The position numbers and the translations under genes were made by a program. From assembly GCA_930367215.1 (NCBI GenBank), contig OV884060.1, positions 99,844,151 through 99,908,150 on the forward strand: a stretch of 64,000 nt of DNA, in the 5' to 3' direction. This document shows, one piece after another, positions 1-60,299 of this stretch. Numbering within the stretch: the first letter of the stretch is position 1; the number at the start of each line of letters is the position of its first letter. The notes below the pieces were generated by a model, which saw only the letters and a list, made by a program, of their open reading frames with translations, had not been told where the DNA came from and searched no databases. The stretch comes from Pollenia angustigena (lineage: Eukaryota > Arthropoda > Insecta > Diptera > Polleniidae).

Positions 1-1407
1 CAACAAAATGCTTTTGGAGCTACCCAGCATAGCAAAGAAAATTATTCTTTTAATTTTTAATGCTTTTTTACGCCTTGAATACTATCCTCAAAAGTGGAAG
101 GTTTCCTTAGTCACCATGATACCTAAATCAGGAAAGGATCTCACAAAAGTTGAGTCATATAGGCCTATAAGCTTACTTTCTAATATATCAAAGCTGTTTG
201 AGAAGCTGTTAACGTCAAAATTAACCACAATTTTAAATGAAAATTGATGTATTCCTAACCACCAATTCAGTTCAATTGATCAAACCCATCGTATAGTAAA
301 CGCAAAAAGAAAAGCCTTTGAAGAAAGAAAATATTGTTCCGCTCTCTTCATCGATGTTTCTCAAGCTTTTGATAAAGTCTGGCATGAAGGCTTATTACAT
401 AAATTGAAGCTAAACTTACCAGTAAACACACACAAGCTGTTAGAAAGCTACTACGAAAGTTTATTATTAAAGAAGGTTATTATTTAAGTTCTCACCAGCA
501 AATTGACGCTGGAGTCCCTCAGGGAAGCAGCCTGGGCCCACTTTTATACTTAATATATACCTCTGACATGCCAACAAACAACTACATCCAAACTTCAACA
601 TTTCCTGATGATACAGCTTTTCTAAGCGTGCACGAAAACAGTCAAGAAGCATCTCGATACCTACAGGATCATATATGTATTTCAACTCGAACTATGGTTA
701 AAGCAATGGAGGATAAAGGTCAATGAGCAAAAATGCGTACATATAACATTCGCCTTGGGTCGGGAATCATGCCGCCCTATTAAAATCAATTATCAAATAA
801 TACCTCAAAATTCGCATGTAAAATACCTCGGTATTCATCTAGATCGCTGTTTAACGTGGAAAAGCCATATAGAGGCAAAATTAACTCAAATGAAACTAAA
901 AGTCATCCAAATTCATTGGCTTATTGGAAGAAACTCTGTCCTTAGTCTCGATTGCAAACTTCTTCTTTACAACTCCATCTTAAAGCCAATCTGGTGCTAT
1001 GGTATTCAGTTATGGGGAACTGCCTCGGCCTCTAATATCGAAAAAATTTAAAGGCGCAAAAATAAACTACTTCGAATAATCACAGCTGACCCTTGGTATG
1101 TTAAAAACTCAAATATTCACAAGGATCTCAAAGTTCCATTAGTTAAAACTATGATTATGAAATATGCAGTAAAATACTGAAAAAGGCTCGAATTGCACCA
1201 GAACCCACTAGCACGAAAGAAGAAGAGACACTGCAGCACTTATCCAATTAGATGAGCGATAACCACCTATATAAGTGAACAGAACCCGTGATGAAGAAAA
1301 TTTTTGTCTGGCACTGGCAGGACATAAAATAACGTATTAGGTTAAGATTTGATTTCATATTTAATTTATTAAGATTCAATAAATAAATAATGCAAAAAAA
1401 AAAAAAA
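1..1407 (+). pseudogene. Jockey-clade non-LTR retrotransposon, 3' part, broken reverse transcriptase
   Basis: Remnant of a LINE ORF2 that would have reverse-transcribed its own RNA. Pieces in order: the RT fingers region at 8-247 (motif ESYRPISLLS), stop TGA at 245, then in the same frame SQAFDKVWHEG near 359-390, then after a frameshift near 470 GVPQGSSLGP near 508-540 and FPDD at 601 in place of the catalytic (F/Y)ADD box. After another shift, KYLGIHLDRCLTWKSHI follows at 755-1051. The element closes with AATAAATAAATAATG and an A-run ending about 1407, the expected LINE 3' end. The Ala-to-Pro change in the catalytic box, the stops and the shifts make it dead. The 5' end lies outside the window. 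Clade assignment is from motif wording only. Confidence 0.85.
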
Positions 1408-1489
1408 ATTTCAATATGTATCTTTTTGGGAAAAAGTGTATCTTTTTGGCAACTAAAATGTATCTTTCTCGAAATTTCACTGGCAACAC

Positions 1490-2315
1490 TGCACTGTACA
1501 CATCGACCATTACGGGCCATTGCTGTCGATGAAGTCAAAGAGGAAATATATCCTAGTGGTTGTCGACGCTTTTACAAAATTTGTAAAACTGTTCTCAGTA
1601 AACTCTGCAACGACAAAAGAGGTCTTATGTGCGTTGGAGAAATATTAAAAAAAAAAAAAAAAAACAGCAGGCCCAGACGAATAATAAGTGACATTTAATG
1701 AATTTGGGAAATTTGTATCTGATCGTAATATAATTCATGTTAAATGCCATCGAGCATTGCCACAATCTAGTGGTCAAGTGGAGATGGTAAATAGGGATCT
1801 AAGTGCAATGCTAGCTAAAATAACTAAACCAATCAAACACAGCGATTGGGTGGAAAAATTATCTAAGGTAGAATTCGCTATTAACAACACCCTCCACCGT
1901 TCGATAGGGCAAACCCCGAGCATGATGCTATTTGGGGTTGAACAACGCGGCGAGACATTGGACGAGTTGACTGAATATTTGCAGGACGTTTATGGCGACA
2001 CTAATAGGGATTAGAGAACGGGCTTCTCAGACTATTAAGAAGTCTCAATCATACAACCTGAAATATTTTAACGAGCATTATAAAAAGCCAAAAACCTTCA
2101 GTGTGGGGGATTTGGTAGTTTTAAAAAATGTTGATACAGTGACCGGTGTAAACAAGAAGCTCATACCAAAATATAGAGGGCCATATATTGTTCAGAAGCA
2201 ACTGGGTAACGACCGGTATGAAATAACGGATGTTGAGAATTGTCAAGTAACGCAAATGCCATATGTTGGCATAGTAGATTCAAGTTGTTTGAAAAATTGG
2301 TTGGAACTTATGTAG
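1490..2315 (+). pseudogene. Ty3/gypsy pol remnant: integrase core and C-terminal domain
   Basis: Integrase piece of an LTR retrotransposon. HIDHYGPL near 1500 carries the first catalytic Asp, followed by YILVVVDAFTKF. RPRRIISD near 1672-1695 carries the second Asp, and SGQVEMVNRD near 1770-1800 the Glu, so the D,D,E set is readable although split by frameshifts around an A-run near 1650. The C-terminal piece (1992-2315) has GDLVVLKN and YRGPYIV, typical of the gypsy integrase tail. No env or gag is visible. It starts right after the LINE poly-A, so the LINE may have landed in it or truncated it. Several shifts; not functional. Confidence 0.85.
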
Positions 2316-2653
2316 GAATGTTAATAGTAGCATTTTAGAGAACTCTAAAGGCAACACTTACGAAAGCAAGGATTATGAATATTTGTATAAGGGTAGTAGT
2401 GATTTTGAATATGAGGATTACGAATTTTTAGATGAGGAATTTTAATGAATTAGTGTCAATTGAGGTCGATTGAATTGCCAGGTCGGCCGAGATTGTAGTA
2501 ACATAGGATCTGCTAAAATTATTACATAAGTTCTGGTAACACTAGCATATAAGATTTGGTAACACTAAGCCTGCGGCCACATGTTCAGTTTGTTCTTGAT
2601 AGTCTTTTACATATACTGCTTGTCAAAATTTACATAAATTGAAACCTGTGACG
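2316..2653 (+). repeat. Possible 3' LTR start of the gypsy remnant
   Basis: After the integrase reading frame comes a short tail, then a purine-rich, GGTCGGCCGAGAT-like stretch, then TGTAGTAACATAGG at 2494. TGTAGT is a common LTR start in the mdg1/412 group (family knowledge). The LTR would then be cut by the Transib element at 2654 and continue after 6590. An end near 7147 (AACTACAG) is possible but unproven, since no second LTR copy is in the window. Confidence 0.3.
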
Positions 2654-4203
2654 CACTGTGTCACGAGGGTGGCCAAAAATGGTTAAAGTCAATGTTAGAA
2701 TTTGAACGTTTTTTTTTATTTATTTTTTTTTAACACTCTGGTTAGATGATATCTAAAATATCATCTTAAAATGTTTACAAATTGTAAAGTTATAGTGGTT
2801 CAAAGTTAAGATTTTTTTACAGCATACGAAATTTATGGAAAAATCCCAAATTTAATGTTCATTTATAATACTAAGAATTTAAGTATTTGAATATAACGGC
2901 TACCAAAATTTGTAACAGGGTTGTAAGTGATGCTTCTAGTTATAATTACAACACTGTGTTTGTTTACAAATATTGATCATATGTCAGATACCGTTAGAAA
3001 AAAATAGTGGTGAGGCATTGTCAAGATTTTTCAGCAACCGTGAACTTTCGTAGAGAATTTAAAAGAAAGTAGAAATAACACTTTTCCTGTTTTTTTGTAT
3101 TTTTTAGCTGCAAGTATGTATTTTAATATATTTAAAGTTCAGCTGCCCGATATTACCCGAATTCTTTTTGTGATTGTTTTTTAGTGTCAACCTCGTTGCG
3201 GATTCGTACTATTTTTCAACTGTGGCTAGAGATAAGCCAAAACAGACCCTGCGATGTTATGCGTTATGTTAAAGATTTTGTAGAAAATCATTTTAAACGA
3301 GTATTATTAGAAAGGGAACAACAGAAAATAAGGCTTACTCTTTTAAAATTTTCTAACAATTGGTCTAAATATCATCGCATGAGAGATAGATTTGAAACTG
3401 AGTTGAGGGACTGGCTAGATAGAGAATTATTTGGTGAATTCATTTGTAATGTAAGTTTTCGTATAAAGTTTTGGTTTTGCAATAAAACTGAATTGTGTTA
3501 TACTATATTAGGAAGCAAATACAAGTGGTAGAGGCCGGCCGAATGTTTCCTACGAGGAGGGTTCAATGGGAACAAAAAGGAGGCGAGTGGAAGAACTTGT
3601 CGCTTCTACTTCATCTGAAGCTCTTAAAAAAGCCGCAGAAAGGGTAACAGGTTCAAATACTAATAAGAAAATTTCTGTTGAAAGTGCTCTAGCATTATAC
3701 ATTGATATGGATTTATCTATGAGGCAGTACAATATGATGAGAAAAGTAGTTAATGCTCTTCACGAAGATTGCTTTCCGTCATACTACAGTATTTATCGGA
3801 TATAAGAACATCTCATATAAGAACAAAACGCTTATAAGAAAAATTTTCAAAAACACCATGTCTTTTTTATGATTTTTCTTACAAAAAAGGTTTCATATAA
3901 GAAAAACGCTTATAAGAAAAAAACTGATAAAAGAACATTTTTCTTAAACATCAAAATCACAAAATGTATAGAAAAAGAATTTATATAAGAAACTTCCAAC
4001 GGCAACACAGAATTTATGTAGTTTGCATGGACAACTCTGTTTTCTGACAGTTTTACAACAAGAACAAAGTTTTTTTTTACTTTTAGTTTTAGATAAGCGA
4101 CTGGTACTCATTAAGCTTTGTGTTTTTTGACAATAAAAACAAAAGTTAAAATTTTAAAAGAAATACAAAACGGGATAAAAAGAAGCGAAATTGCAAAAAA
4201 ATA

Positions 4204-4452
4204 TGGAGGGTTCAAAGATGAACCGAACCAAGTCATAAAATAAAATTAATATATGTATTTCAAAACTGTTGTGAAATTCTTCGCAAAGTTTAACTCTATC
4301 GAGTTCTGTAACGGACTAAATCAAAGAGATTTTCGTTCCAAAGGTAACGGTAATAAACCCATGTCAATGGCTCCAGAAATTCACTTACTCAAACTCAAAA
4401 TATTATCGAATTTTCATTTTTGACTTGGTTCGCTTCAGCTCTGAGCCCTCCA
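4204..4452. mobile_element. MITE with TIR TGGAGGGTTCA, TA duplication
   Basis: About 31 bp of imperfect inverted repeat (TGGAGGGTTCAAAGATGAA at the left, its mirrored form at the right) flanked by TA. Removing it restores the pogo reading frame AKKY-NIG-LSTL, which fixes the boundaries. Confidence 0.8.
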
Positions 4453-4538
4453 TATAATATTGGACTTTCAACGTTATCTAAAATAGTGAAAAACTCAAAA
4501 GACATAGACAATAATTATTTAAAAGTAAAAAACGTTAA

Positions 4539-4689
4539 CATGGGGTCTTCACCTGACAATTTTTTGTCATACCTACCAAACGTCAAAGTCCATATAAAAA
4601 TAACTTTAAAATTTTTGTCAGCGTTTTTTTTTTTTTATATGAAGTTTGACGTTTATTATAACAAAAAATTGTCAGGTGAAGACCTTATG
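4539..4689. mobile_element. Harbinger-type MITE, copy 1 (TIR CATGGGGTCTTCACCTGAC)
   Basis: A near-complete palindrome of about 151 bp, with TAA duplicated at 4536-4538 and 4690-4692. The second copy at 7365 lies in the opposite orientation and has TTA duplicated. Three-base TWA duplications point to PIF/Harbinger. Confidence 0.75.
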
Positions 4690-6239
4690 TAACAAAAAAG
4701 AGACAGAAAACCAAAATATGAAAGTCTTATGGCCATAGCTACTTTTATAAGAAATAAGTTTCTTATATAAAATAGTTGTATATAAGAAAGAAACGCTTAT
4801 AAGAAACTTTTTTCCTGGATTTTTTAAGTTTCTTATATCCGATAAATACTGTATATGATTGCAGATGCTAAAAAAAAAGATTTTGCCTGATGACATTCAA
4901 GTAACAGAAACTTCTGCAGAGGTTCCCTTACAAAAAATTTTAGACAAAGCTGTAAGAAGCAGTTTAGATGTTCATGATATTGATACCGAAAATGATATAG
5001 TTTTGGAATGCAAGTGGGGAGTTGAAGGCAGCAGTGGTCATAGTGTATACAAACAAAAATTTGAAAATGAGGAAGCTAGTGATGAATTTATGTTTGTTAC
5101 TTCTTTCGTTCCTTTACGCTTGTTGGATTGGGCAGATGATCAAGTAGTTTGGGAAAATGAAAAACACTCATCTTGGAGGTTATGTAGACCACTTAAAATT
5201 ATTTTTAGCATAAATTCAGAAATTGAAGGTCTAGATACATATAAATACATTTCAAAAAACAAAAATCTTAACGTTCATTATAAAATGCAGTTGACGATGA
5301 TAGATGGTGCAGTTTTAAATGTATTAAGTGGAAACAGTAGTAGTTCAACTTGTGCTTTATGTCGAGCTAAGCCATCTGAAATGAACAGCTTATCGGTTTT
5401 CGAAAGGCCTGTGAATGAGCAGTGCTATCAGTATGGATTGTCGACATTACATGCATGGATCAAATGTTTTGAATGCATTTTGCATATTTCTTACAAACAG
5501 CATATAAAGAAATGGAAAGTGGTAGGAAAAGAAAATAAAGATCAGGTTGCTGAGCAAAAGAGAAATATTCAAGCCAAATTTAAGTCTGAAATGGGTCTTA
5601 TAGTTGATAAGGTTAATAAAAAAATTTTCCATTATTTTAAGAACACTTTCAAGTGGTCATTATATACATATATCAAGTTTTGAAAAGCTTTTAAAATATA
5701 CTGCACTTTTATACTTCGAATTATATTCTTGGTACTATATGCCTTCAACTGTGCACAAAATTTTAGTTCATGGTATAGATTTTATTAAATATTCTACCAT
5801 TCCCATTGGAATGTTATCAGAAGAAGCAATAGAATCAAGTCACAAAATTATAAGAAATGCAAGATTAAGACATACGAGAAAAATAAGTAGGATTGCCTCC
5901 ATGAGAGACCTCATAAATTATCTTATTTTGCAGTCAGAGCCATCAATTTCGATGCATAGTAAGAAAATACTTTTAAGAAAAAGTGATTTAAATGATCTGA
6001 AAGGATATTAAGTTGAAAAGAAAAGATTTAACGACATAAAAACAGCGAATGAATCATTGGTAGAATCTGAAAGTGATTACAGTGATAATTGTTAATATAC
6101 TTTGATTGCCTGTAATACTTATATATATTTTATGTCTGTATGTTAAATATGTTATGTTAAATAAATAAAATTTATGTTTCTAAATTTGTTTTTACTGAGC
6201 GGCAAGGACTTACGTACTAAATTTACTTTTGTAAAATTT

Positions 6240-14540: not shown

Positions 14541-15335
14541 ATGTACAAATTGAAAAAAAGTGGCATCTCAGTTCATTTTGTTCGGCACAAGAATTAAAAT
14601 TAAACCAATTCAAGAAAAACGTTCCGAACAAATTCATTGCTCTCTCTCTCTCAAAAGTAAAACGTCAAACTCAATATAAAAAAAATTTTGTCCGGACAAA
14701 AATTTTGTTCGGTACGCATGGGTGAATCGAGCTTTAATGTAAGTTGAGTTGTTGAAAGCAATTAGTTTGTTTTAAATTTATTTTCTGTGTTGTGTGTCAG
14801 CAAAAATAAAATATAAAATAAAAAAAAAATAATTTTTGATATTCTTTAATTAGGCTTGAGTTCATCAAATTTAATTTTCATTAAAGTATTTTCCGTGGAA
14901 AATTCGTAATTGACCTTAATATTTTTAAAAAGAATGGCGTGAGCATGCAAGTGTTGACAATTTTACGCTTTTCGGGTATTTTATGAAGCTTTTTGGGTCT
15001 CGTTAACCTTTAATTTTTTTCGAATACCCTTTTTAGCACTTTTAGTGCTTTTTTTACAAACATATGATTTGGGTTTTTGTAATTTACGACTTTTTTGCAA
15101 AAAAAAAAAATTGCCCTTATTGTCTTTGGCGTTTTTGCGGCGTTAACTAGTCGTTTTTTAAAAACGGTACCGTGATTGGCGAAAAACGCCAATGAATACG
15201 ACACTTTTCAAATCTATTGCAAAAACGACGTCAAAACAGTACCGTGTTTGGCGTATTTGTCTGTCAAAAGTGTAAAAAATTGTCGTTAAACATTTTGATC
15301 ACGACGTTATTAAAATTATTTGAGAAATAATTTCA

Positions 15336-30250: not shown

Positions 30251-30420
30251 CTTATCTTTACCAGAAATACTTTTGAGATAAGGAAAACCTACGTTTATTT
30301 TTGAAAAAAAAAAAAAATGGATTGAGTCTCCATTGATTTCAATTTCACATAATTTCGATTTCCAAAACATAGTTAATAATACATAAAAAAAATATATTTA
30401 TATAAAATAAGTACACTTAC

Positions 30421-32032
30421 CAAAATTTATTGCAGTCCTATATCGCAAAATAGCATGAAGCAAAAGTATAATAGCACCTACAGATATACACGTAACTATG
30501 CCCATGGAAGATCTCGGTTCTAATAAAACTATAAGAACCATTACTAAAAATGAGCCAAACGATATTATAACTGATGAGTACACTGTAGCTAATCCGTAAA
30601 CTACTGGAATTTCATTGCGACGTTCTTCATTATTTCCTTCATACATACGTTTCATTTTTTTGAAAATCTCTGGTATAACACTTTCTGTGCGACTGATAAC
30701 GATTCTAGAGGCACTTTTAGGGGGTAATACATAAACCATTAAAGGTGAAACTGTGACTATAATGATTTGAAGGATAAAAAGAGCGTAAATAACTATAGCC
30801 ATTGCGTCAATATGAGTTCTTTGTATATTCTTGATTGTACTGTTCGATAAAAGAATGTGACCCCCTGCACAAATACTTGCTACTGTAGGTCCATATCGTG
30901 CTACCAGGACGTTCACACAATTTCCAGTCAAATTTCCACAGGAACGCAGGTAGATACGACTTAGCGTAGTGTACAAAACTATCATGACAACTGATAATAT
31001 ATATGTTTTAGCACTTGCTGGTTTTTTAAGTGAAAACCCATCTAAGTTGCCGTTGTTCGTAAAGTCTGCACAATTGCCTTGCTCTTCGCGACAACGGAAC
31101 AGAGATGTTGCAAAGCGAATCAATGCAATAGCAAGAAAACTTGCCAAAAATAGTTTAAATGCAGTTGAATTTAAGAATGGTTGAAATTTAAATTTATTTC
31201 TAAAATCAACTCGAACACTTTTCTGCAAAAGTTCGTAAACCATAAGGAAAATTACAGCTACTAAAAGGTATGACAAAATCTTGCCTTCTTCAATGATGAA
31301 ACTATTTGAGAAAAACACACAAACTAAAATCACCAGTATTAACCGTGTGACAAAATTACCAGGCCTTTTAACCTTTGACAAATTATTCGCAATTGTTGGC
31401 CAGTTTTGTACAGTGTGAAATACCATAATTAAAGTACTTATTATGCTAGTACAAAATATTATTGCATGTTCTTCCGTTTTGAATGCAAAGTTTTTATAAT
31501 ACCGATATCCAAATACTCCTGCTGCAAAATTCAAAAGGTATGTGTAAGCAACTTCTTTTAAATAGAAAATTTTGTAAAAGTCTGTGGATTTCGTATTGTT
31601 GATTAAAATGAAAGAGAAAAATACGGGTAAGATCGTCGCAAGTAGCCCTTGCGACATTTGGGTTGCATCAAACCTCACCCATATCTCGCGGCAAGTACTT
31701 AATATTTGTCTCAGATTGTTATTTAAGTCTAAAACAAACGACTTAAAAGCAGCTTCATTGTAGATCGTTTTCACTCGATGTGTTAACACAATAAAGTCAG
31801 TGTCTATGCTCTCCATTCTGTCAACGCTAAACGTGCGTTTATTTTCTAACGCGTAATTGAAAAAGTAATTATATATTTGTTGTGCATTTTGCCAGGCGTG
31901 TAAAATTATAGTCTGAACTTTAGTTAAGTGCGGAATGGTTATATCAGGAATAATATTGAAATTAACCAAACCTAAATTAGAATATGGTATTGGTATTCCA
32001 AGAATTGTAGCAAGTGTTGGCACAAAGTCAAT
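30421..32032 (-). CDS. PIG-O: PIG-O, large central exon (multi-membrane region)
   Basis: 1,612 bp. On the minus strand it starts after TATTTTAG with IDFVPTLATILGIPIPYSN, the end of the alkaline-phosphatase-like catalytic domain, and ends TTTTG/GTAAGT in phase 1. HAWQNAQQIYNYFF and CREIWVRFD (about residues 114-122 of this exon) are typical of PIG-O. After that come about a dozen hydrophobic stretches that make the ER membrane domain. PIG-O transfers ethanolamine phosphate onto the third mannose of the GPI core, normally with PIG-F as partner. No stop or shift in 537 codons, so the gene looks active. The N-terminal 300-odd residues with the metal-binding catalytic residues are upstream, not in the window. 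Confidence 0.95.
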
Positions 32033-37621: not shown

Positions 37622-37779
37622 TTATATTTAATCAAATAAAAAACACGAAAATTTAAACCTGTGTAGCTGTTTTAATCGATCTAGCTTTGCTAATAAGGAA
37701 AATATTGGATTTTTTGTGGTCATTTTGTGTGAGAGGTAGGCGTGGTTGTTAGCAGATTTTTGATAAAATTGCAATGAGC

Positions 37780-38770
37780 AAAAAATTGTGACTCAACAAT
37801 GTTTTTTAACTTTTGTGTTATATGGGAAGTAGGCGTCGTTGTGCTCGGATTTTCTTCATATTTGCAGTATTCTTTTATTACAACCAAATATTAGTCCATG
37901 CCGAAATTCAAGGCTCTGAACAAAAACTTGTGACTCTACAATGATTTTTAACTTTTGTGTTATATGGGAAGTAGGCGTGGTTGTGCTCGGATTTTCTTCA
38001 TATTTGCAGTATTATTTTATTACAACCAAATATTAGTCCATGCCGAAATTCAAGGCTCTGAACAAAAAATTGTGACTCTACAATGATTTTTAACGTTTGT
38101 GTTATATGGGAAGTAGGCGTGGTTGTGCTCGGATTTTCTTCATATTTGCAGTATTCTTTTATCACAACCAAATATTAGTCCATGCCGAAATTCAAGGCTC
38201 TGAACGAAAAATTGTGACTCTATAATGATTTTTAACTTTTGTGTTATATGGGAAGTAGGCGTGGTTGTGCTCGGATTTTCTTCATATATGCAGTGTTCTT
38301 TTATCACAACCAAATATTAGTCCATGCCGAAATTCAAGGCTCTGAACAAAAAAAAATTGTGACTCTACAATGATTTTTAACGTTTGTGTTATATGGGAAG
38401 TAGGCGTGGTTGTGCTCGGATTTTCTTCATATTTGCAGTATTCTTTTATCACAACCAAATATTAGTCCATGCCGAAATTCAAGGCTCTGAACGAAAAATT
38501 GTGACTCTATAATGATTTTTAACTTTTGTGTTATATGGGAAGTAGGCGTGGTTGTGCTCGGATTTTCTTCATATTTGCAGTGTTCTTTTATCACAACCAA
38601 ATATTAGTCCATGCCGAAATTCAAGGCTCTGAACGAAAAATTGTGACTCTATAATGATTTTTAACTTTTGTGTTATATGGGAAGTAGGCGTGGTTGTGCT
38701 CGGATTTTCTTCATTTTTGCAGCATTTTTTTATCAAAAGAAAATATTGTCCGTACCGAAATTCAAGGCTC
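37780..38770 (+). repeat. 142-bp satellite, about 7 units
   Basis: The motif TATGGGAAGTAGGCGTGG recurs at 37824, 37966, 38108, 38250, 38395, 38537 and 38679: 142-bp spacing, one unit of 145. Units include GACTCTACAATGATTTTTAAC, CTCGGATTTTCTTCATATTT and TTAGTCCATGCCGAAATTCAA, with little divergence. The last unit decays near 38750. Confidence 0.92.
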
Positions 38771-38876
38771 TACCATGTTTCCTTATATTTAATGCCGTCA
38801 ATCGTATGAAGCTGAACCACTGTGCGAGGGTTTGAGTGGGACCATACACGGAAAACACACAAAAGTACCGTTATTT

Positions 38877-48634: not shown

Positions 48635-50960
48635 GTTGTCAGATATTTTTGAAATTTGGTACACTAGCATAAAAAAGCTTAGTTAAGAAAAATTAGAATT
48701 TTTGGAAAAATCGGCCCAAGGACACGCCTACCTCCCATGTGTCCTGAAATTGAAAAATGTAATTTTAGCTTCAATAAAGCCCACAAAATTACAAAAAGTG
48801 GTCATGCTGATACAAACAAATGCAACTTGCAACGTGTGTGTAAATATTTATTTAAATCGGGCTAAGGATTCAAGGTCCTGTAATATATCCTCTTTCTTAA
48901 AAACGCTATCACTCCTACAAAAAAATTTGGGTAAAATCGGATTATCAATGTGGAAAATACAAGAACATCATTAATTGAAAAAAAGGCTAAAACGGTTAAA
49001 ATGCTCTTGCAAAAACAAAACTATAAGGATATTGGAAAGATAACATAAATGAAAAAATTAAAGAGGAAAACTAGCAATGTTAACGTCATTAAAAAATGAT
49101 AAAAAAATCATATCGCACTTGATCCATCAAAATTTTTATTTTTCCACTTTCCGCTGTAAAAATAGCGTGCTATTTTGCCTACTTTTTGGTAGTGAAATGG
49201 TTGGTTTAAAAATTAATTTTCATATGCCTTTAATATTAAATTTAAAATTGTTTTGCTTCTACTGAACATTTTGAGTTAATACCCTCCTGTTGATTAAGTG
49301 CATTATATATTCATAAACAAATTAAAATTTTGGATTTTGAAACACTGCCACTGCCACTGGAGCATGGGCGCCAAAATTTCATAATTTCTTAAAAATTATA
49401 ATAGCTTAACTTAATAATTATTTTTATCACTCCTAAAATAAAAAACGTTAAAAAAAACATATAAAGACAAACTTATAACAAAGCATCATCGCTACTTGAT
49501 TCTTCCCAAAACCAATTTTCGCTTAACGAAGAACTCATCTCGTCTTCTATTATCTCATCTTCGATTTCAACATTTTCTCCAAGAATATATTTCCCAATTT
49601 TAGCATCTATTATTTTATTTTTAATCTTAATGTTTCTCTTTGATGATAATACGGGATCTGAAGACAACAACAAATATGTCATTAAATTAAAAACACCGAA
49701 GGTTTTTAAAAACTTAGCTCGAGTTATTTTTTTATGGCCCACTGAACTTTTTAATTTTTTTAAAGGTGTTTGGAATGTGTAAAGAAAAACTATTTAATGT
49801 TTGTAGAACTTTTTAATCCTTTAAACACACGTTTTAAAGGTTTTCAATAAGAATATTTAAAAAAGAGACTTAAATGACTCCTAAAAATAGGAGTCATTTA
49901 ATCCTAAAAATGGGAGATAGAGGGTTAGATAATATGTTGAGCTCAGAAGTAGATTTATTACATTTTTTCGATTTATTTCATACGACTTTGCTGAAACACA
50001 ATTTGATAATAATATATGATAATTTACAACTTTACTGTTTTAAGCATTATGCTTATATCACACGAACTTACAACCCCTAGTGAAATTCGATGCAGAAAAT
50101 TGTTGTAGAATATTTTAACCCTTTAAACGTACGTGTTAGTGGTGTTCTATGAGGAGGGGCTGAAATGACCCCTAAAAATGGCTGATAGTTCTATGAAAAG
50201 AACCGTCATCAAATTTTATTAAAATTATCTATTAACCTTATTTAGCTCAGAATTAGATTTAATACATTTTTTTTGACTTACTCAAAACGCCTTTTAAAAA
50301 AAAATTAAAAACTTCAGTGGTTTTGGTCTTCTAATGATATAATTTATTTCTTTTATTTTTTAACATTCAAAATATAAATTCGTGTTGCGCAATGATATTA
50401 AACACTCTTAAATGCCTGATATTTGAGTAAAAATCATAAAATAAGGCATTTCAAAAAACGCATTTTTTTTAAGTTGTGGTAAAAAATAGGCACTAATTTT
50501 TGAATACCCTGTTAGCTAAGAGTATAAACTTACTAAAACAGAAATAAAAAAATATCTAATTTTATATAATTTTTTTTATACTCCATCAAACTTAAGTAAT
50601 TTTTGGATTTTCAACAAAAAAAAATGTGTTTTTCAGAGCAATATAAAAAGTTATTTTGTAAATAAATACTAAATACTAAATTATAAATTTTAATTTCATT
50701 GCAAATATATCAAAGTACTTGAAAACCAAATTTCGAGCGACTTTTTAAAAAAATGAATTTTTCAGAATTATTATTGTGAAACAACTAAAACTAATTTTTC
50801 TGTTAAATAATTTTTGCAAGAAATTATCTGCTTTTAACGCCCTCTCGTGGTGGCAAAAGCAATCAGAAAATTTTTTTTGTTAACATTTATTTGAGATACC
50901 TTATTATCTTTCAAAAAATCTGTATTTAAAAACAATTTGAGACAAAAATTTTTTTTTGAT
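48635..50960. mobile_element. Unclassified 2.3-kb insertion in gag
   Basis: Interrupts gag. Both borders show GACAAAAAT in inverted orientation (near 48620 and 50965), perhaps part of the ends. It contains a diverged direct repeat (TGTAGAAC/TTTTTAACCCTTTAAAC...GCTCAGAA.TAGATTTA) at about 49800-49970 and 50103-50270, and a minus-strand ORF (49742-49473) with an acidic tail (EIEDEIIEDEMSSSLSE) that I do not recognise. Confidence 0.5.
49473..49742 (-). CDS. Unknown ORF with acidic C-terminus in the gag insertion
   Basis: 89 codons from MGHKKITRAKFLKTFGVFNL to a Ser/Asp-rich end. A possible terminal exon of a transposase or accessory gene, but without a known motif. Coding status is uncertain. 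Confidence 0.25.
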   Translation of the reverse strand: MGHKKITRAKFLKTFGVFNLMTYLLLSSDPVLSSKRNIKIKNKIIDAKIGKYILGENVEIEDEIIEDEMSSSLSENWFWEESSSDDALL

Positions 50961-51722
50961 TTTTGTCTATGTGTCGAAGCATAGTGCGGCGTTGGTTCCT
51001 AATTTCGAAGCTTTTGATCCGGCAAAGGAGACGTACCATAATTACATTCAGCGGTTCCAAAATTACGTAAACATGAAAGGCGCTGATGGTAATAAGGAGT
51101 ACTGTACGAAGCTCCTTTTAAATTCGATTGGTGCTAAGCATTTTGATAGGGTGACCGCATTAGCGGCACCAAAAGTAGCAGCAGAGCTACAGTACGATGA
51201 GTTGTTGAAGCTGTTGGAAAATTATTTGGCCCCAAAAAGAAATGTGCTTGTGGCACAACACAGATTTCTATCAAGATATCAGGGTGAAGGACAGTCAGTG
51301 GCAGATTTTGTGGCGACACTTCGCACTGATATTATCGATTGCGAATTTGTGTCAGAGTGCAAGTGCAAAAGTTCAATTGCTGATGTGTTTTTGAGGGCAC
51401 AATTTATCCGTGGTATTATTGACAACGGAATGCGTGAGCAACTGCTTCAATCTGAATCTTCAAAATTCGAAGCAGCAAAATATGAAATATGAATTGTCAC
51501 ATGCTGCGACAAATTCATCCAGTGCAACTTTAAATAAAATTTTCAATAAAAGAAAAACTAATAATCGTACTAGACCTCAACAACCCCAACACAAACGAAA
51601 AATAAATTATGAGCAATTGGGTATTGCGGGGTTATGTTTATGATGTGGTAAAAATGATCATTTTGCGAAGGAGTGTCGCTCCAGTCCAAAACTAAAATGC
51701 GATTTGTGCGCAAAGCACGGGC

Positions 51723-54700
51723 ATGTACATAGCTAAAGTCTGCATTGCTTTTTTTTTGGCGGTTAGTCCTAATGCCGGACCTAAAAATAAACCCAGTACA
51801 CGGGGAAATTCAACAAATCAAGTGCGTGTCGATAATTCTAATTACGGAATTTACAAAATTGTTGATGTTTACCGCAATGATTACACAAATAGAAATTCTG
51901 AACGCTATTACGCCAACATTTCTATAGAGGGAAAAATTGTTAAATTTGAAGTGGACTCTGGCTATTCATTTTTGCCCCGAAGCGTATTTAAATCATTAAA
52001 GTTGTCTAACGAAATAACGCCTACAAATATAGTTTTCCGCTCCTATACACAAAACACATTTACAGCTGACGGCAAAGTACGGGTGCTCATTAAATTCAAC
52101 AATATTTCGATTTTTGATGACATTTATGTTGTACCAGACGGTTGTACAGCCTTAATAGGCCGAACCTGGATACGCCGCCTAAATATTAACCTAAATGAAT
52201 TAGATCAAATTAATTCAGATATGTCTGTTACCAATTCTATTACAGATTCGAACCAAATTCAAGATTTAATGATCGAATTTGCATCTGTCTTTGAACAGAA
52301 AATTGGGTGTATCCCTAACTACAAGGTTTCATTGCAATTGCGTGAAAATGTCAAACCTAGCTACACCAAAGACCACCAAATTCGATACGCGTTGGCAGAA
52401 CGTGTCAACAAAGATCTCGAAGATTTGGAAAAAGAGGGAATCATCACTAAAGTGGCAAACGGTGACTGGGGTTCACCCTTAGTGGTCATCCCTAAAGCTG
52501 ACGTAAATCAAAGGTTGGTAGACGCACATTACCCAATACGCAAAATAGATCAAATTTTCAACAGCCTCAAGGATTCGAGATTTTACTGTCGCCTCGATCT
52601 TTTCAAGGCTTATTTGCACGTTCCCGTTGATGAACTTTCATCTGAAATTCAAACAATTTCCACGCATAAAGGTACAATTCGTATGAACCGGTTGTCTTTC
52701 GGTATTAAAACGGCTCCTGCTGAATTCAATAGAATCGTAGATCAAATATTGCGTGAAATTCCAAAGACAGAATCCTATTTCGATGACATTGTGGTCCATG
52801 GTGAGTCTTTAGCCGAGTGCAAAGCTAATCTAAAATCTTGTTTGTCTCAACTCAAAAAGTACGACCTTCACTTGAATCTTACCAAATGTACGTTCTATCA
52901 AAAATAAATTGAATTTTTGGGTCATACCGTGGAGTATATAAAGTAAAGGCCATTGTTGAGATGCCACAACTAAAAAGTGTGGAGGATGTCCGTCGATTCC
53001 TTGGCATGGTCACATACTACTCCAGGTTTATACCCAATGCTTCTACGTTAACTACTCCGTTACATATGTTATTACGTAAAAATGCAATTTTTAAATGGAA
53101 CTTCAGTTGTCAAAAATCATTCAATGAACTGAAAAAAGAGATTGCCAGTGAGAGAGTGCTAATGCCGTTCAATCCGAATTTAAAGGTTCAACTTGCGTGT
53201 GACGCTAGTCCCACAGGGATAGCAGGCGTTTTGTCTCATATCGTGGAAGATGAGGAAAGGCCAATTGCGTTTACATCAAGGTCGTTAACTGCTGCCAAAC
53301 GGAATTACTCTCAACTTGACCGTGAGGCTTTGGCGATAGTGTATTCTGTGCAACATTTCCATGAATATGTCTATGGTAGACTTTTCAAACTTATTACGGA
53401 CAACCAGCCTCTATCCCGGATTTTTCACCAAAATTCAAAATTACCGCAAATGACTTCATCTAGGCTTCAAAGGTATGCTGCTTTCCTGACCGGCTACAAC
53501 TACGAGGTTACTACAAAAAAAAAACGAGGAAAATGTTAATGCCGATTCTTGTCAAGATCCCCTTTACCCACAGGTATGTCTTGTATCAATTTTATGGATG
53601 AGCAAATAGAGTGTTGCGATTCCACTTTGTTACAAATAAATTCGTTAGAATTAAATTACAATTCAATTCGCAATGCTACAAAAAGAGATGCACAACTTTC
53701 AAAAATCATGAAGGAATTGCGTAGTTCAGACGTAATCGATACGGAGTATACCATTGATTCCGATATTTTATTCAGGGGAAAAAGGGTCATGATTCCTAGT
53801 TCACTACAACAAGCGGTACTAAATGCACTCCATTACACACACATTGGTATAACCAAAATGAAGCAACTGGCAAGGAGGGTCGTATTCTGGTCTTCAATAG
53901 ACAAGGATATCGAGAGGTGGGTTCGTTCGTGTGCTACTTGTGCCTCTGTTCAAAATAATCCTCCAAAAGCTATTTTACATCCGTGGGATGAACCACAATA
54001 AAATTGGCAACGTTTACACATTGACTACGCAGGGCCCTATCAGGGACATCAATTTCTGGTAGTCATCGACTCTAAATCTAAATGGGCAGAAGTGGGCGTG
54101 TGCTCATCGGCACCAACGTCAGCATCAACCATCGAAATGTTATCTAACATCTTCGCTAGGAATGGATTTTCATATGTTATGGTATCTGACAACGCAACCA
54201 TCTTCAAAAGTGACGAGTTAATTCAATTTTGCCGCAACTCTGGTATTTTTCAAAAATTTATTGCTCCGGGTCATCCGGCAACAAACGGACTGGCCGTAAA
54301 GAATGTCCAGACTTTAAAGAAACGACTGGCAGCTATGTCAGACGATATATCCCCCATACCTAAAAAGGTTCCAGAGATACTTTTCCGATTCGGGGCGACA
54401 CCTCTGCAAAATGGGAAATCGCCATCAGAGCAGTGAGCGGAAGGCAAATTAGAATCCAACTAGATGCTTTAAAGCCTCCAAAGTATTGTAAAAATTCCAC
54501 TCCAGATATAACGGTCAGACAGCTAAGTGAGGGAGACCGCGTTTAAGCAAGATATTACAACGTTTATAACCCTGCATGGAAACTTGGTATCATCACTAAA
54601 AAACTTGGTGACATTACCTTGTTCGTCTTGACAATGGGTTCATATTTAAACGTCACTTCAACCAATTACGCGCCACTAATGTACATTTACCTGCAACAAG

Positions 54701-55051: not shown

Positions 55052-56697
55052 CAGTGCTGATCAAAAAAATAGACCTTTTTATTTTTTTTAATTTTTTTGA
55101 AATTGCTAAAGGAATTAATTTTATTTCTAGTTTAGTTTTAATACACAATCTAAATACTAAAGTTGAAGCAAAATTTTTTTCTTTTTAATATCTTTATTAA
55201 CATAAAAAAATAAATAATTCACTTTTTTGCTGCTCAAAGTAATAGACTTATTTTAATTATCGTAAGAGGTCTTACGTTTTTTTTTATTAGAGTAAAGTAC
55301 TAAATTAAAAGTATGTAATATAATATTTAAGACTTATTATTTTTTGCTATTTTAGTAACCAGAGTGACCACCATTGTTATCTAGCACAGCTCGAATCCGG
55401 TTGGGCATTGACTCAATTAATTTTCGACATTTTTCAATTGGAATGCCTTCCCAACTGCTTTTCACACTTTCCCAAAGTTGCGATTTATTCGTAAAAACTT
55501 TTCCCTATATGCTTCTCTTTAGTTCCGTCCACAAGTTCTCAATCGGGTTGAGATCAGGAGATTGAGAGGGCCATTCCAAAGAGGATACTTCGTGTTCACT
55601 CAGCCAAGATTTAACCAATTTTGACGAGTGTTTAGGATCATTGTCCTGTTGGAAGTACCAATTTGGTGGCATATGGTTGTTTGCATATGGTAGCATCACA
55701 TCCTTTAAAATATCGCAGTAGATTTTTTTATTCATGATTTCAGTGATCTGGTGTAAAGGTCCTACACCATACCATGAAAATGCGCCCCACACCATAATAT
55801 TGCCTCCACCATGTTTGACCGTTTTTTTGGTATACCGGTCATCCAGCTCTTTACCTTTTGGTCTTCTGACGTTACGGCGACTATCTGAGCCAAATAAATT
55901 TATTTTAGTTTCATCGCTCCACAAAATTTTCTTGAAATCATCAAGAGACCGATTTTGGTATTTTTTAGCAAATTGAATACGAGCTTTTTTGTTCTTGGCA
56001 CTTAATAGAGGAACCTTTCGGGCGACTCTTCCAGGCAAATTATTTTCAAGAAGTCTTCGGCGCACTGACGGAGCACTAATTTCATTATTAATTTCAGCAG
56101 AAATTTTTTTTGATGATATAAATGGATTTTTTTTTGCCAAGAGTACTATACGGAAATCAGTAGTTGACGACGTTTTTCGTGGTCTACCACGTGTTTCTTT
56201 GGTTTTTTTCCACTTTAAAGCATTTCTAATACAGTGTTCGGATCTTGCAAGTGCTCTAGCAATGAAATCTATACTTTTCCCTTCACTTCTTAGATTTTTA
56301 GCAACGCGGCGTTCCTCAATAGTGCAATGTTTTTTTCGCCCCATCTTAAGCAAATATTTTAAATAAATTTAAATGTGTTTTGTTAAATATTTGTTTACTT
56401 ACTTTTTATTAAGCTATCTTGCACAGAACAAGAAAAAAGTTATAAAAAATTCCTTGATACAAGAAAGTTGTTCCAAAAAGGTCTATTATATTGAACAGTT
56501 ACAATTGCACTAAATTATGTTTTTACCACCTACACTTGAAACTCAAAAAATAAATTCCACAAAAATGCAACAATTATTAGAGAAGACATATACAAATCTA
56601 ACGGTAATATTTGATCTCAAGAGAAAAAATGTAAATAAGAACAATTTAAGAACAAACTTTTTCTCTTAGTAACCGCCTATTATATTGATCAGCACTG
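55052..56697 (-). mobile_element. Tc1-like transposon, full length (1,646 bp), TA TSD
   Basis: Ends CAGTGCTGATCAAAAAAATA at the left and CAGTGCTGATCAATATAATA on the other strand at the right. TA at 55050-55051 and 56698-56699. A single gene fills the middle, on the minus strand. It is the youngest layer here: it cuts a gypsy LTR that is itself only about 3% diverged. Confidence 0.93.
55352..56353 (-). pseudogene. Tc1-like DD34E transposase, near intact, one internal stop
   Basis: ATG at 56353 (MLKMGRKKHCTIEERR; the second Met at 56344 is equally likely). N-terminal paired helix-turn-helix with RGRPRKTS as the linker, then WSDETKINLFGSD (first Asp), YFQQDNDPKHSS (second Asp) and SPDLNPIENLW (Glu), with 34 residues between the second Asp and the Glu. 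A TAG after WTELKRSI (near 55505) is the only break. The frame goes on for about 50 residues (EGIPIEKCRKLIESMP) to a TAA at 55352, so the gene is one substitution away from open, or an allele may be. Confidence 0.9.
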
Positions 56698-57445: not shown

Positions 57446-57735
57446 ATGCTTAGAATCTTAGCTAAACAAAAAAAGGGTTTTAGCATATGTCACATTAATG
57501 CCCAAAGCTTAGGCAATAAGTTGTATGAATTTCGTTATTTATTCGAAAACTCTGGAATTGATGCAATATATGTTTCCGAAACCTGGGTTTCTAACAAAAT
57601 GAGCGATAACTTTTATGGTGTTAACGGATACCGTGTTTTTCGGTCTGACAGATATAAACATACCGGTGGAATTGCTATATATGGTTGTAAGAAATAATAA
57701 ATCATGTAAAATTAATTCAATCTACAACTGAAACT
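57446..57735 (+). pseudogene. LINE ORF2 start: AP-type endonuclease, truncated
   Basis: MLRILAKQKKGFSICHINAQ begins the domain that nicks target DNA; IDAIYVSETW carries the catalytic Glu, then RVFRSDRYKHTGG. A one-base shift near 57675 is followed by RNNKSCKINS. After about 57735 the LINE is interrupted by repeats; its far end reappears at 60560. Confidence 0.8.
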
Positions 57736-58131
57736 GTTGTGCATTATTTATGCACAAGCTGTTCATAAATATAAAATGTTTAGGTACATTTTTGAATATA
57801 CAACTTTGCGCATAAATTATGCCTAATAATCATAAATTCTGCACAATCTATTAAAATTGTGCATAAGTTAACACAAAAAATGTGCACAGTTTGTGAACAT
57901 TGTTCATAGCTTAATTATTTGAAAATTAAACCCAATTGATCATAATATATGAACATTGTGCATGAACGACTATTAACACTTACTGTTCAGAGTTATACCT
58001 ACTTGTACATATTATCAAAAAGTAATTTCAATTTTTGGGAATACAAAATTTTAATTTCAAAAGATTTTGTTATTCGTGCTTAATTCCCAGTTTTTATTCT
58101 TGATAAAAACACTTGAAATTTATTGTTGATG

Positions 58132-58193
58132 GGATAAGCTATTCCTATGCATTTCACTGGTTGCTTAGGCCAGATCATCAGGAAACTTCATCC
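58132..58193 (-). ncRNA. Hammerhead ribozyme (type I), unit 1
   Basis: On the minus strand: helix I GUUUC with GGAAU (two wobble pairs), an inner loop, then GGAU with AUCC; core CUGAUGA; helix II CUGG/CCAG with loop CCUAAGCAA and a U-U at its base; GAA; helix III is the palindrome AUGCAU; predicted cut after A in the AUA triplet. The short palindromic helix III suggests cleavage as a dimer. Confidence 0.62.
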
Positions 58194-58601
58194 ATAAAGA
58201 TTTTAGACAAACTAAAGATATTAAACCAAATAAAACTGTTAAACGTATAAGACTTATAGCAACAGTTTTACTTGTAACAATATCAAAGCTTGAACAAAAT
58301 ACATCAACAATAAAAAAGTGGGTTTATCTTATCTTACACTCCCCACCACAATTAGTTGAAATTCTCTCAACATTAATTGTAGTTGTAAGTAGGTTAAGAA
58401 AAACAAAATAAAAAACAAACAACAACTTACAAAAGATGTTGTCAATTAAGTGTTTTTTTAGGCCGTGCACTTGCCTGTTTATTATCAAAAAGTAATTTCA
58501 ATTTTTGGGAATACAAAATTTTAATTTCAAAAGATTTTGTTATTCGTGCTTAATTCCCAGTTTTTATTCTTGATAAAAACACTTGAAATTTATTGTTGAT
58601 G

Positions 58602-58663
58602 GGATAAGCTATTCCTATGCATTTCACTGGTTGCTTAGGCCAGATCATCAGGAAACTTCATCC
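58602..58663 (-). ncRNA. Hammerhead ribozyme, unit 2
   Basis: Identical core to unit 1, exactly 470 bp further on. Confidence 0.62.
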
Positions 58664-59071
58664 ATAAAGATTTTAGACAAACTAAAGATATTAAACCAAA
58701 TAAAACTGTTAAACGTATAAGACTTATAGCAACAGTTTTACGTGTAACAATATCAAAGCTTGAACAAAATACATCAACAATAAAAAAGTGGGTTTATCTT
58801 ATCTTACAGTCCCCACCACAATTAGTTGAAATTCTCTCAACATTAATTGTAGTTGTAAGTAGGTTAAGAAAAACAAAATAAAAAACAAACAACAACTTAC
58901 AAAAGATGTTGTCAATTAAGTGTTTTTTTAGGCAGTGCACTTGCCTGTTTATTATCAAAAAGTAATTTCAATTTTTGGGAATACAAAATTTTAATTTCAA
59001 AAGATTTTGTTATTCGTGCTTAATTCCCAGTTTTTATTCTTGATAAAAACACTTGAAATTTATTGTTGATG

Positions 59072-59133
59072 GGATAAGCTATTCCTATGCATTTCACTGG
59101 TTGCTTAGGCCAGATCATCAGGAAACTTCATCC
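59072..59133 (-). ncRNA. Hammerhead ribozyme, unit 3
   Basis: Identical core to units 1 and 2, again 470 bp further on; this unit is cut short after 59200. Confidence 0.62.
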
Positions 59134-59487
59134 ATAAAGATTTTAGACAAACTAAAGATATTAAACCAAATAAAACTGTTAAACGTATAAGACTTATAGC
59201 AGGCAAGTGCACGGCCTAAAAAAACACTTAATTGACAACATCTTTTGTAAGTTGTTGTTTGTTTTTTATTTTGTTTTTCTTAACCTACTAACAACTACAA
59301 TTAATGTTGAGAGAATTTCAACTAATTGTGGTGGGGAGTGTAAGATAAGAAAGATAAACCCACTTTTTTATTGTTGATGTATTTTGTTCAAGCTTTGATA
59401 TTGTTACAAGTAAAACTGTTGCTATAAGTCTTATACGTTTAAACGTTTTATTTGGTTTAATATCTTTAGTTTGTCTAAAATCTTTAT

Positions 59488-59549
59488 GGATGAAGTTTCC
59501 TGATGATCTGGCCTAAGCAACCAGTGAAATGCATAGGAATAGCTTATCC
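59488..59549 (+). ncRNA. Hammerhead ribozyme, inverted unit 4
   Basis: Same sequence on the plus strand. The predicted cleavage is between 59535 and 59536. Confidence 0.62.
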
Positions 59550-59957
59550 CATCAACAATAAATTTCAAGTGTTTTTATCAAGAATAAAAACTGGGAATTA
59601 AGCACGAATAACAAAATCTTTTGAAATTAAAATTTTGTATTCCCAAAAATTGAAATTACTTTTTGATAATAAACAGGCAAGTGCACGGCCTAAAAAAACA
59701 CTTAATTGACAACATCTTTTGTAAGTTGTTGTTTGTTTTTTATTTTGTTTTTCTTAACCTACTTACAACTACAATTAATGTTGAGAGAATTTCAACTAAT
59801 TGTGGTGGGGAGTGTAAGATAAGATAAACCCACTTTTTTATTGTTGATGTATTTTGTTCAAGCTTTGATATTGTTACAAGTAAAACTGTTGCTATAAGTC
59901 TTATACGTTTAACAGTTTTATTTGGTTTAATATCTTTAGTTTGTCTAAAATCTTTAT

Positions 59958-60019
59958 GGATGAAGTTTCCTGATGATCTGGCCTAAGCAACCAGTGAAAT
60001 GCAAAGGAATAGCTTATCC
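59958..60019 (+). ncRNA. Hammerhead ribozyme, inverted unit 5, probably inactive
   Basis: Same fold, but AUGCAU is changed to AUGCAA. This removes the U of the NUH cleavage triplet and the A-U pair, so it should not cut. Confidence 0.55.
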
Positions 60020-60299
60020 CATCAAAAATAAATTTCAAGTGTTTTTATTAAGAATAAAAACTGGGAATTAAGCACGAATAACAAAATCTACTTGTACATA
60101 TTTTGATATGTGTGTATCTTGTTCATAAGTTGTGCCCATTTATGCATAGATTATGAACAATGCGTACACATATGGATAATGAGTATGCATTAATTGCAAG
60201 TTAGTTTCACTTACGTTCTTTGTTTTAAGAGTGCCGGTTGTGTTTAGAAGCGACAGTAGTTGAAGTGAAGTGAATATTATTTATAAATATATAATTGTA

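Follow-up and report, generated by a model that had tools for sequence, protein, structure and literature searches.

Several families of noncoding tandem repeats and retroelements resemble the locus described here. Metazoan non-LTR retrozymes, as described from coral, mussel and axolotl (Cervera and de la Pena 2020, PMC7229834), are short noncoding tandem repeats of low GC content, with repeats of 150-450 bp, type I hammerheads and target duplications of more than 4 bp, and they share their genomes with Penelope-like elements, which the same paper proposes as a strong candidate for retrozyme mobilisation; retrozyme-like repeats in insects are mentioned there in general terms. One of the axolotl hammerheads in that account has a U-U mismatch at the base of helix II and cleaves, another has a helix III of a single pair with a palindromic tetraloop; cleavage of either is poor in the monomer and far better in the dimer. 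Penelope elements of Adineta have head-to-head inverted pseudo-LTRs with a 31-bp optional tail at one end (PMC3846280). A Penelope-like protein from Anolis acts on both target strands, cutting and extending each of them, mostly at ATT, and its reverse transcriptase (RT) starts at two sites within the RNA that are not homologous to the cut DNA (PMC11167929); by arithmetic from the positions given in that paper, 85-92 nt separate the hammerhead cut from the main start downstream of it. Foldback transposons of flies, such as Tetris of Drosophila virilis, are noncoding and carry tandem repeats in inverted arms, flanked by 8-10 bp duplications (PMC4079207).

The DNA analysed here, referred to as the window, is a stretch of 64 kb from the genome of the fly Pollenia angustigena. 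The array that it contains probably arose in a single recent insertion event, as a noncoding and non-autonomous non-LTR retrozyme that was mobilised by a Penelope-like element, with priming from both strands of the target. Like the retrozymes of PMC7229834, it is a short, noncoding, AT-rich tandem repeat with many copies, duplications of more than 4 bp and Penelope-like elements in the same genome; the repeats of the fly families are a little longer, at 470-484 bp. Its type I hammerhead is predicted from sequence, and two traits of the prediction recall the axolotl hammerheads: the U-U mismatch at the foot of helix II, and a helix III of one pair with a palindromic tetraloop. With the Penelope-like elements described from Adineta, from Anolis (Poseidon) and in its own genome it shares head-to-head inverted arms in the manner of pseudo-LTRs, tandem units, short duplications, an optional tail at one end and a predicted minimal hammerhead about 74-101 nt before the (short) 3' end. 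This likeness is one of anatomy, no sequence homology having been found: the hammerhead and 3' sequences of the unit are unlike those of the Penelope-like elements examined in its own genome, and the array lacks the open frame for RT and GIY-YIG that marks an autonomous element. The duplications of the fly arrays (10-16 bp, shared nucleotides included) compare with 8-10 bp in Adineta (PMC3846280), and the microhomology at the fly borders differs from the start sites described for the Anolis element (PMC11167929). In the fly, the two arms of an insertion meet head to head and differ in their 3' ends, one being long and the other short, an anatomy for which no description was found in the available parts of PMC7229834; nor did the titles and abstract openings of open-licence papers yield one announcing it for retrozymes.

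The array in the window and its surroundings

Repeat finding, TRF and unit alignment place five copies of an AT-rich 470-bp unit at 58010-60089, with three minus-strand units followed by two plus-strand units, head to head. Unit positions are numbered s1-470 in the hammerhead sense, the predicted cut falling after s334.

57999-58013, plus strand: left target-site duplication CTACTTGTACATATT, an exact repeat of 60088-60102; its last 4 nt are common to the unit
58010-58479, minus strand: complete unit U1, which carries the long outer 3' end (s470) of the minus arm
58480-58949, minus strand: unit U2, complete; three private substitutions
58950-59201, minus strand: unit U3, 252 bp, 5'-truncated, s219-470
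59200-59201, no strand: head-to-head junction of both arms, with a 2-bp microhomology CA in the unit alignment
59200-59671, plus strand: unit U4, 472 bp, s3-470; a private 4-nt insertion and three private substitutions
59672-60089, plus strand: unit U5, 418 bp, s1-418; it carries the short outer 3' end (s418) of the plus arm
60088-60102, plus strand: right target-site duplication CTACTTGTACATATT; its first 2 nt are common to the unit

The units are 97.9-100% identical to U2, and all differences among them are private to single units. Both arms point outward in the hammerhead sense, so that their 5' ends are central and their 3' ends lie at the borders (s470 on the left, s418 on the right). The preliminary description had recognised the array and its repeat, but had set its limits at 58014..60087, slightly inside the true span, and had spoken of a 470-bp unit throughout, whereas two of the five units (U3 and U5) are partial and only U1 and U2 are complete minus-strand units. 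The 15-bp direct repeat that it had placed at the borders is present exactly; the unit shares 4 nt of it at the left border and 2 nt at the right, which leaves an exclusive part of 9 nt. Its account of a noncoding array with tandem and inverted units agrees with the five units found, three minus and two plus, and with the absence of any stop-to-stop frame of at least 120 aa in the array. Further copies of the unit inside the 64-kb window were not found at E 0.001. The preliminary description had noted no RT nearby; a Pfam scan of 10 of the window's 20 stop-to-stop frames of at least 120 aa recognised no Penelope RT, and the single RT there pairs with an RNase H.

The flanks (57690-58009 and 60103-60180) are dense in the short motifs TGTGCAT and TTCATAA, which occur in either orientation and give the impression that the array sits within another small repeat. 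Elsewhere in the window there are an LTR-retrotransposon-like pol with Pfam matches to RT and RNase H (50941-54436), a 287-aa open frame with matches to Tc1/mariner-type transposases (55505-56368), a frame related to GPI ethanolamine phosphate transferase 3 (PIG-O; 30398-32032) and a 142-bp tandem repeat of seven copies found by TRF (37775-38771).

Hammerhead motif and sister family

The unit follows the plan of a minimal type I hammerhead, with CUGAUGA, a 4-bp helix II closed by a 9-nt loop, and GAAA. Helix III is a single A-U pair closing a palindromic UGCA, the site is AUA, and helix I is formed by two segments (5 + 6 pairs) flanking a small internal loop. At the foot of helix II, base 10.1/11.1 is U-U, as had been noted before. 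The predicted hammerheads are placed as follows.

58132-58193, minus strand: hammerhead of U1, predicted cut between 58146 and 58145
58602-58663, minus strand: predicted hammerhead of U2
59072-59133, minus strand: predicted hammerhead of U3
59488-59549, plus strand: hammerhead of U4, predicted cut between 59535 and 59536
59958-60019, plus strand: hammerhead of U5, with A for the conserved U before the predicted cut

U5 reads ATGCAAA and the others ATGCATA; with the conserved U replaced, the U5 hammerhead is probably without function. The earlier statement that all five units carry CTGATGA, the 4-bp helix II, GAAA and the helix I strands is right. A type I descriptor, composed after the motif was seen and allowing one helix II mismatch, matches this array alone in the window, in four of the five units (U5 fails). 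In 200 Mb of first-order Markov sequence, both strands included, it gave 30 matches, which corresponds to 0.0096 per 64 kb or 7e-5 per unit.

The covariance-model check proposed in the preliminary description went against the motif: Rfam returned no hammerhead match, even at E 10, for the window, the array, the single hammerhead or ten fetched loci. This test seems weak here, because Rfam is also blind to motifs in four loci of the same genome (L070, L071, L062 and L079), recognised by eye from CUGAAGA, helix II and GAAACG, which we take to be Penelope-type hammerheads; these pair in helix II only with one nucleotide after the core bulged, and so make no clean positive control. ViennaRNA prefers another register for the monomer (-13.7 kcal/mol, against -8.3 for the hammerhead without helix III and -2.8 with it) and another fold for the dimer (-33.6 against -22.3 kcal/mol), so that cleavage may be slow or need help, and the U-U mismatch should slow the predicted cleavage.

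A diverged copy about 79% identical to the unit (L039 1647-2036) led to a sister family with 3803 candidates; among the 40 scored, full-length matches are 94-100% identical to the query. Its tandem period is 484 bp (L099). In a sample of 21 rows, consisting of L039 and 20 fetched places (L080-L099), CTGATGA and the U-U are kept in 21/21 and GAA and the 11 helix I pairs each in 20/21, while helix III is AUGCGCAU, with 2 bp, as against AUGCAU in the unit. Helix I has diverged between the two families: 3 of the 12 positions of its 5' strand are altered (an alternative account being two indels plus one change), and its 3' strand shows three substitutions together with two indels. When the unit was mutated at random with an equal number of changes, the 11 pairs of the sister family were reached by 325 of 20000 mutants under a uniform scheme and by 641 under a transition-biased one, and its helix I energy by 1044 (uniform) or 1685 (transition-biased) of 20000, i.e. 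5-8%. Since the 21 copies are near-identical, they count as one comparison, and since random mutants match the sister helix I this often, its conservation is moderate evidence; to that degree, the retained core and helix I argue for the hammerhead reading. The fourth pair of helix II is A-C in 12 of the 21 copies, leaving three pairs, an argument against strong constraint on helix II; in one copy a further pair is lost. Placed by eye, the ends of the sister copies fall at the long site in 11 cases and at the short site in 6, and 4 copies continue into the next unit.

A second hammerhead-like motif (L041 5068-5567 and L062 682-1181) was rejected, as it lies within a repeat with a GGGTTCGAGCCC box, presumably a tRNA-derived SINE; the mimicry of a hammerhead by such a sequence means that the motif alone can mislead. 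A 67-bp piece of this SINE-like repeat also occurs in the window, at 14826-14892.

Copies, borders and templates across the genome

The search for other copies that had been suggested earlier shows the unit to be dispersed: the genome (1.37 Gb, 31 contigs) contains at least 179 matches, with 40 of 607 candidates scored. From the matches listed, 31 other loci were compared with the window, giving a set of 32; L058 and L059 cover opposite ends of a single array about 19 kb long. The hammerhead region is identical in 150 of 166 copies. Two arms are present at 22 of the 32 loci, in all 22 cases head to head, and the other ten are single-arm and 5'-truncated; the fetched arrays reach up to 28 units and pieces. 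Pattern searches of viral, bacterial and archaeal contigs and blastn against phages and plasmids yielded only 19 loci with a 16-base match, and in these the match to the unit does not extend further. One unit at L059 bears a 2.8-kb insertion inside its hammerhead (3205-6037), with a 10-bp duplication and no match to the Penelope protein of L071.

The borders of these insertions follow a regular pattern. Of the 22 loci with two arms, 20 show both of their outer ends, the other two (L047 and L057) extending beyond the fetched stretch, and 17 of the 20 arrays have one short end (s418-435) and one long end (s461-470), that is, 84-101 nt and 127-136 nt past the predicted cut, respectively. Each of the 17 is flanked by a target duplication, 10-16 bp long with a median of 14 when shared nucleotides are counted. 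A duplication of at least 10 nt is present in 18 of the 20 arrays, as against 12 of 1056 cross-locus pairings, and in only two of the ten single-arm loci. The exceptions to the end pattern are L046 (ends 469/372, with a 10-bp duplication), L040 (248/447) and L053 (459/467), which is taken as one array interrupted by an insertion and has no convincing duplication. Microhomology between target and element averages 3.4 and 4.1 nt at the two ends in 16 arrays, compared with 0.93 and 0.72 nt in 240 cross-pairs, these means being rough, as the array ends were placed by blastn.

Variation within arrays bears on the template. In the 26 arrays with at least three units or pieces, 264 of the varying alignment columns are single-unit, 38 are fixed within an array and 33 are intermediate, with 25 of these 33 in one array (L047). 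Such near-exclusively private variation fits one short template copied repeatedly, or else a young homogeneous source; the homogeneous arrays could also stem from long transcripts of a young homogeneous array. In L042 (1998-4314), five consecutive pieces alternate A-B-A-B-A with a period of 943 nt, and the two B pieces carry G335T, a change of the nucleotide directly after the predicted cut with which the first pair of helix I is lost. If cutting failed in B, a circle of two units would result, and the alternation may be read as a partial hint, and a hint only, of the ribozyme step, with the 5'-most piece of that arm discordant in having G at 335 where B is expected. L037 also alternates with a period of two, with the hammerhead unchanged and the fifth piece out of pattern.

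Penelope-like elements, rival readings and a proposed route to DNA

Penelope-like elements with open frames are abundant in the same genome; in those examined, no sequence homology to the unit was found. A search for GIY-YIG gave 19 loci. The Penelope RT/GIY-YIG protein of L071 has 120 matches in the genome, with several open frames of 823-840 aa, and its relatives in flies such as Haematobia, Rhagoletis, Calliphora and Stomoxys carry RVT_1, with a shorter match in Musca. L079 contains an open Penelope-like frame of 823 aa (778-3246), followed about 206 nt past the stop (at about 3452) by the Penelope-type hammerhead motif CTGAAGA..GACGAAACGTT; two other Penelope lineages of the genome carry similar motifs. 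In the L079 lineage, seven of eight copies end 74-79 nt past their own predicted cut and diverge from each other there; these seven represent six independent copies, as L078 and L068 share a flank, and the match of L077 stops before the motif. For six Penelope copies tested, no clear case of target duplication was obtained. The unit itself has no convincing similarity to the Penelope 3' ends or protein: blastn gave no match to L079, the 3'-end alignment shows no similarity to the Penelope elements examined, and the comparison with Penelope protein gave one antisense tblastn match of 28 aa (E 0.006).

The retrozyme reading has to be weighed against the rather unlikely case that the units are terminal repeats (pseudo-LTRs) of a Penelope-like element that lost its open frame, the ribozyme being a passenger and the templates linear read-through multimers. 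Tandem pseudo-LTRs, minimal hammerheads, inverted copies and an optional tail of 30-40 nt are all described for such elements (PMC3846280, PMC11167929, PMC7761336), hammerhead mutants had no effect on insertion in vitro (PMC11167929), and unit-like sequence occurs in three of the 19 GIY-YIG loci. At those three Penelope copies, however, the unit-like pieces look like nested or adjacent insertions, because homology among Penelope copies stops at a 3' site of their own and includes a hammerhead motif distinct from that of the unit, and the fetched loci contain no Penelope open frame between unit repeats. Arrays of up to 28 units or pieces in which nearly all variation is private are also explained most simply by a small circle, although a young homogeneous source would serve as well. 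The idea that the unit beside the GIY-YIG frame of L071 is the pseudo-LTR of that element was dropped, since L079 has no similarity to the unit and Penelope copies end at their own site. At L062 (577-591) and L070 (797 and 2632), Penelope copies adjoin unit-like sequence as if inserted into older copies of the unit; no clear duplication was found at the L070 copy.

Two further explanations are far less probable than the pseudo-LTR reading. That the array is ordinary satellite DNA with a local inversion, its likeness to a hammerhead being due to chance, is very unlikely, even though the motif by itself has a chance expectation of 0.0096 per 64 kb, Rfam is silent and a tRNA-like SINE has a similar hammerhead likeness: the insertions are dispersed with flanking duplications, the motif stands at set distances from their ends, and the core and helix I are kept in the sister family. 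Movement of tandem-repeat inverted arms by a transposase, as in a foldback or other TIR DNA transposon, is slightly less likely still. Tetris offers a precedent for such arms and for duplications of 8-10 bp (PMC4079207), but in 17 of the 20 arrays the tips of the two arms lie at different points of the unit, 26-52 nt apart, so that there is no terminal inverted repeat in register, and on this asymmetry a foldback identity was rejected. Single-arm 5'-truncated copies are moreover frequent (10 of 32 loci) and duplication length varies from 10 to 16 nt, features in which the fly arrays differ from Tetris as described in that paper.

A non-autonomous retrozyme related to Penelope, the identity first proposed, is therefore supported by the dispersed copies, the duplications, the head-to-head anatomy and the set 3' ends, with moderate support from the sister family. 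Its insertion might proceed as follows. Multimeric transcripts would be cut by the hammerhead, probably pairing as dimers via AUGCAU, and the monomers would be closed into circles. The RT/endonuclease of a Penelope-like element would then nick both target strands, and each target end would serve to prime cDNA, at one or other of two start sites. By running round the circle repeatedly, each RT would give tandem units, and the two cDNA arms would be joined at a short microhomology, which would leave the 5' ends in the centre. As a more tentative extension, a dimeric Penelope enzyme may hold both start sites of one RNA circle, each being used exactly once, which would account for one short and one long end, each arm having been rolled off the circle.

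For the return of animal retrozymes to DNA, this multicopy and partly recent family offers genomic evidence in the form of Penelope-like borders at set distances from the hammerhead. The model predicts one long and one short end for every two-armed insertion, one template for every array, and altered periods where the ribozyme is impaired.
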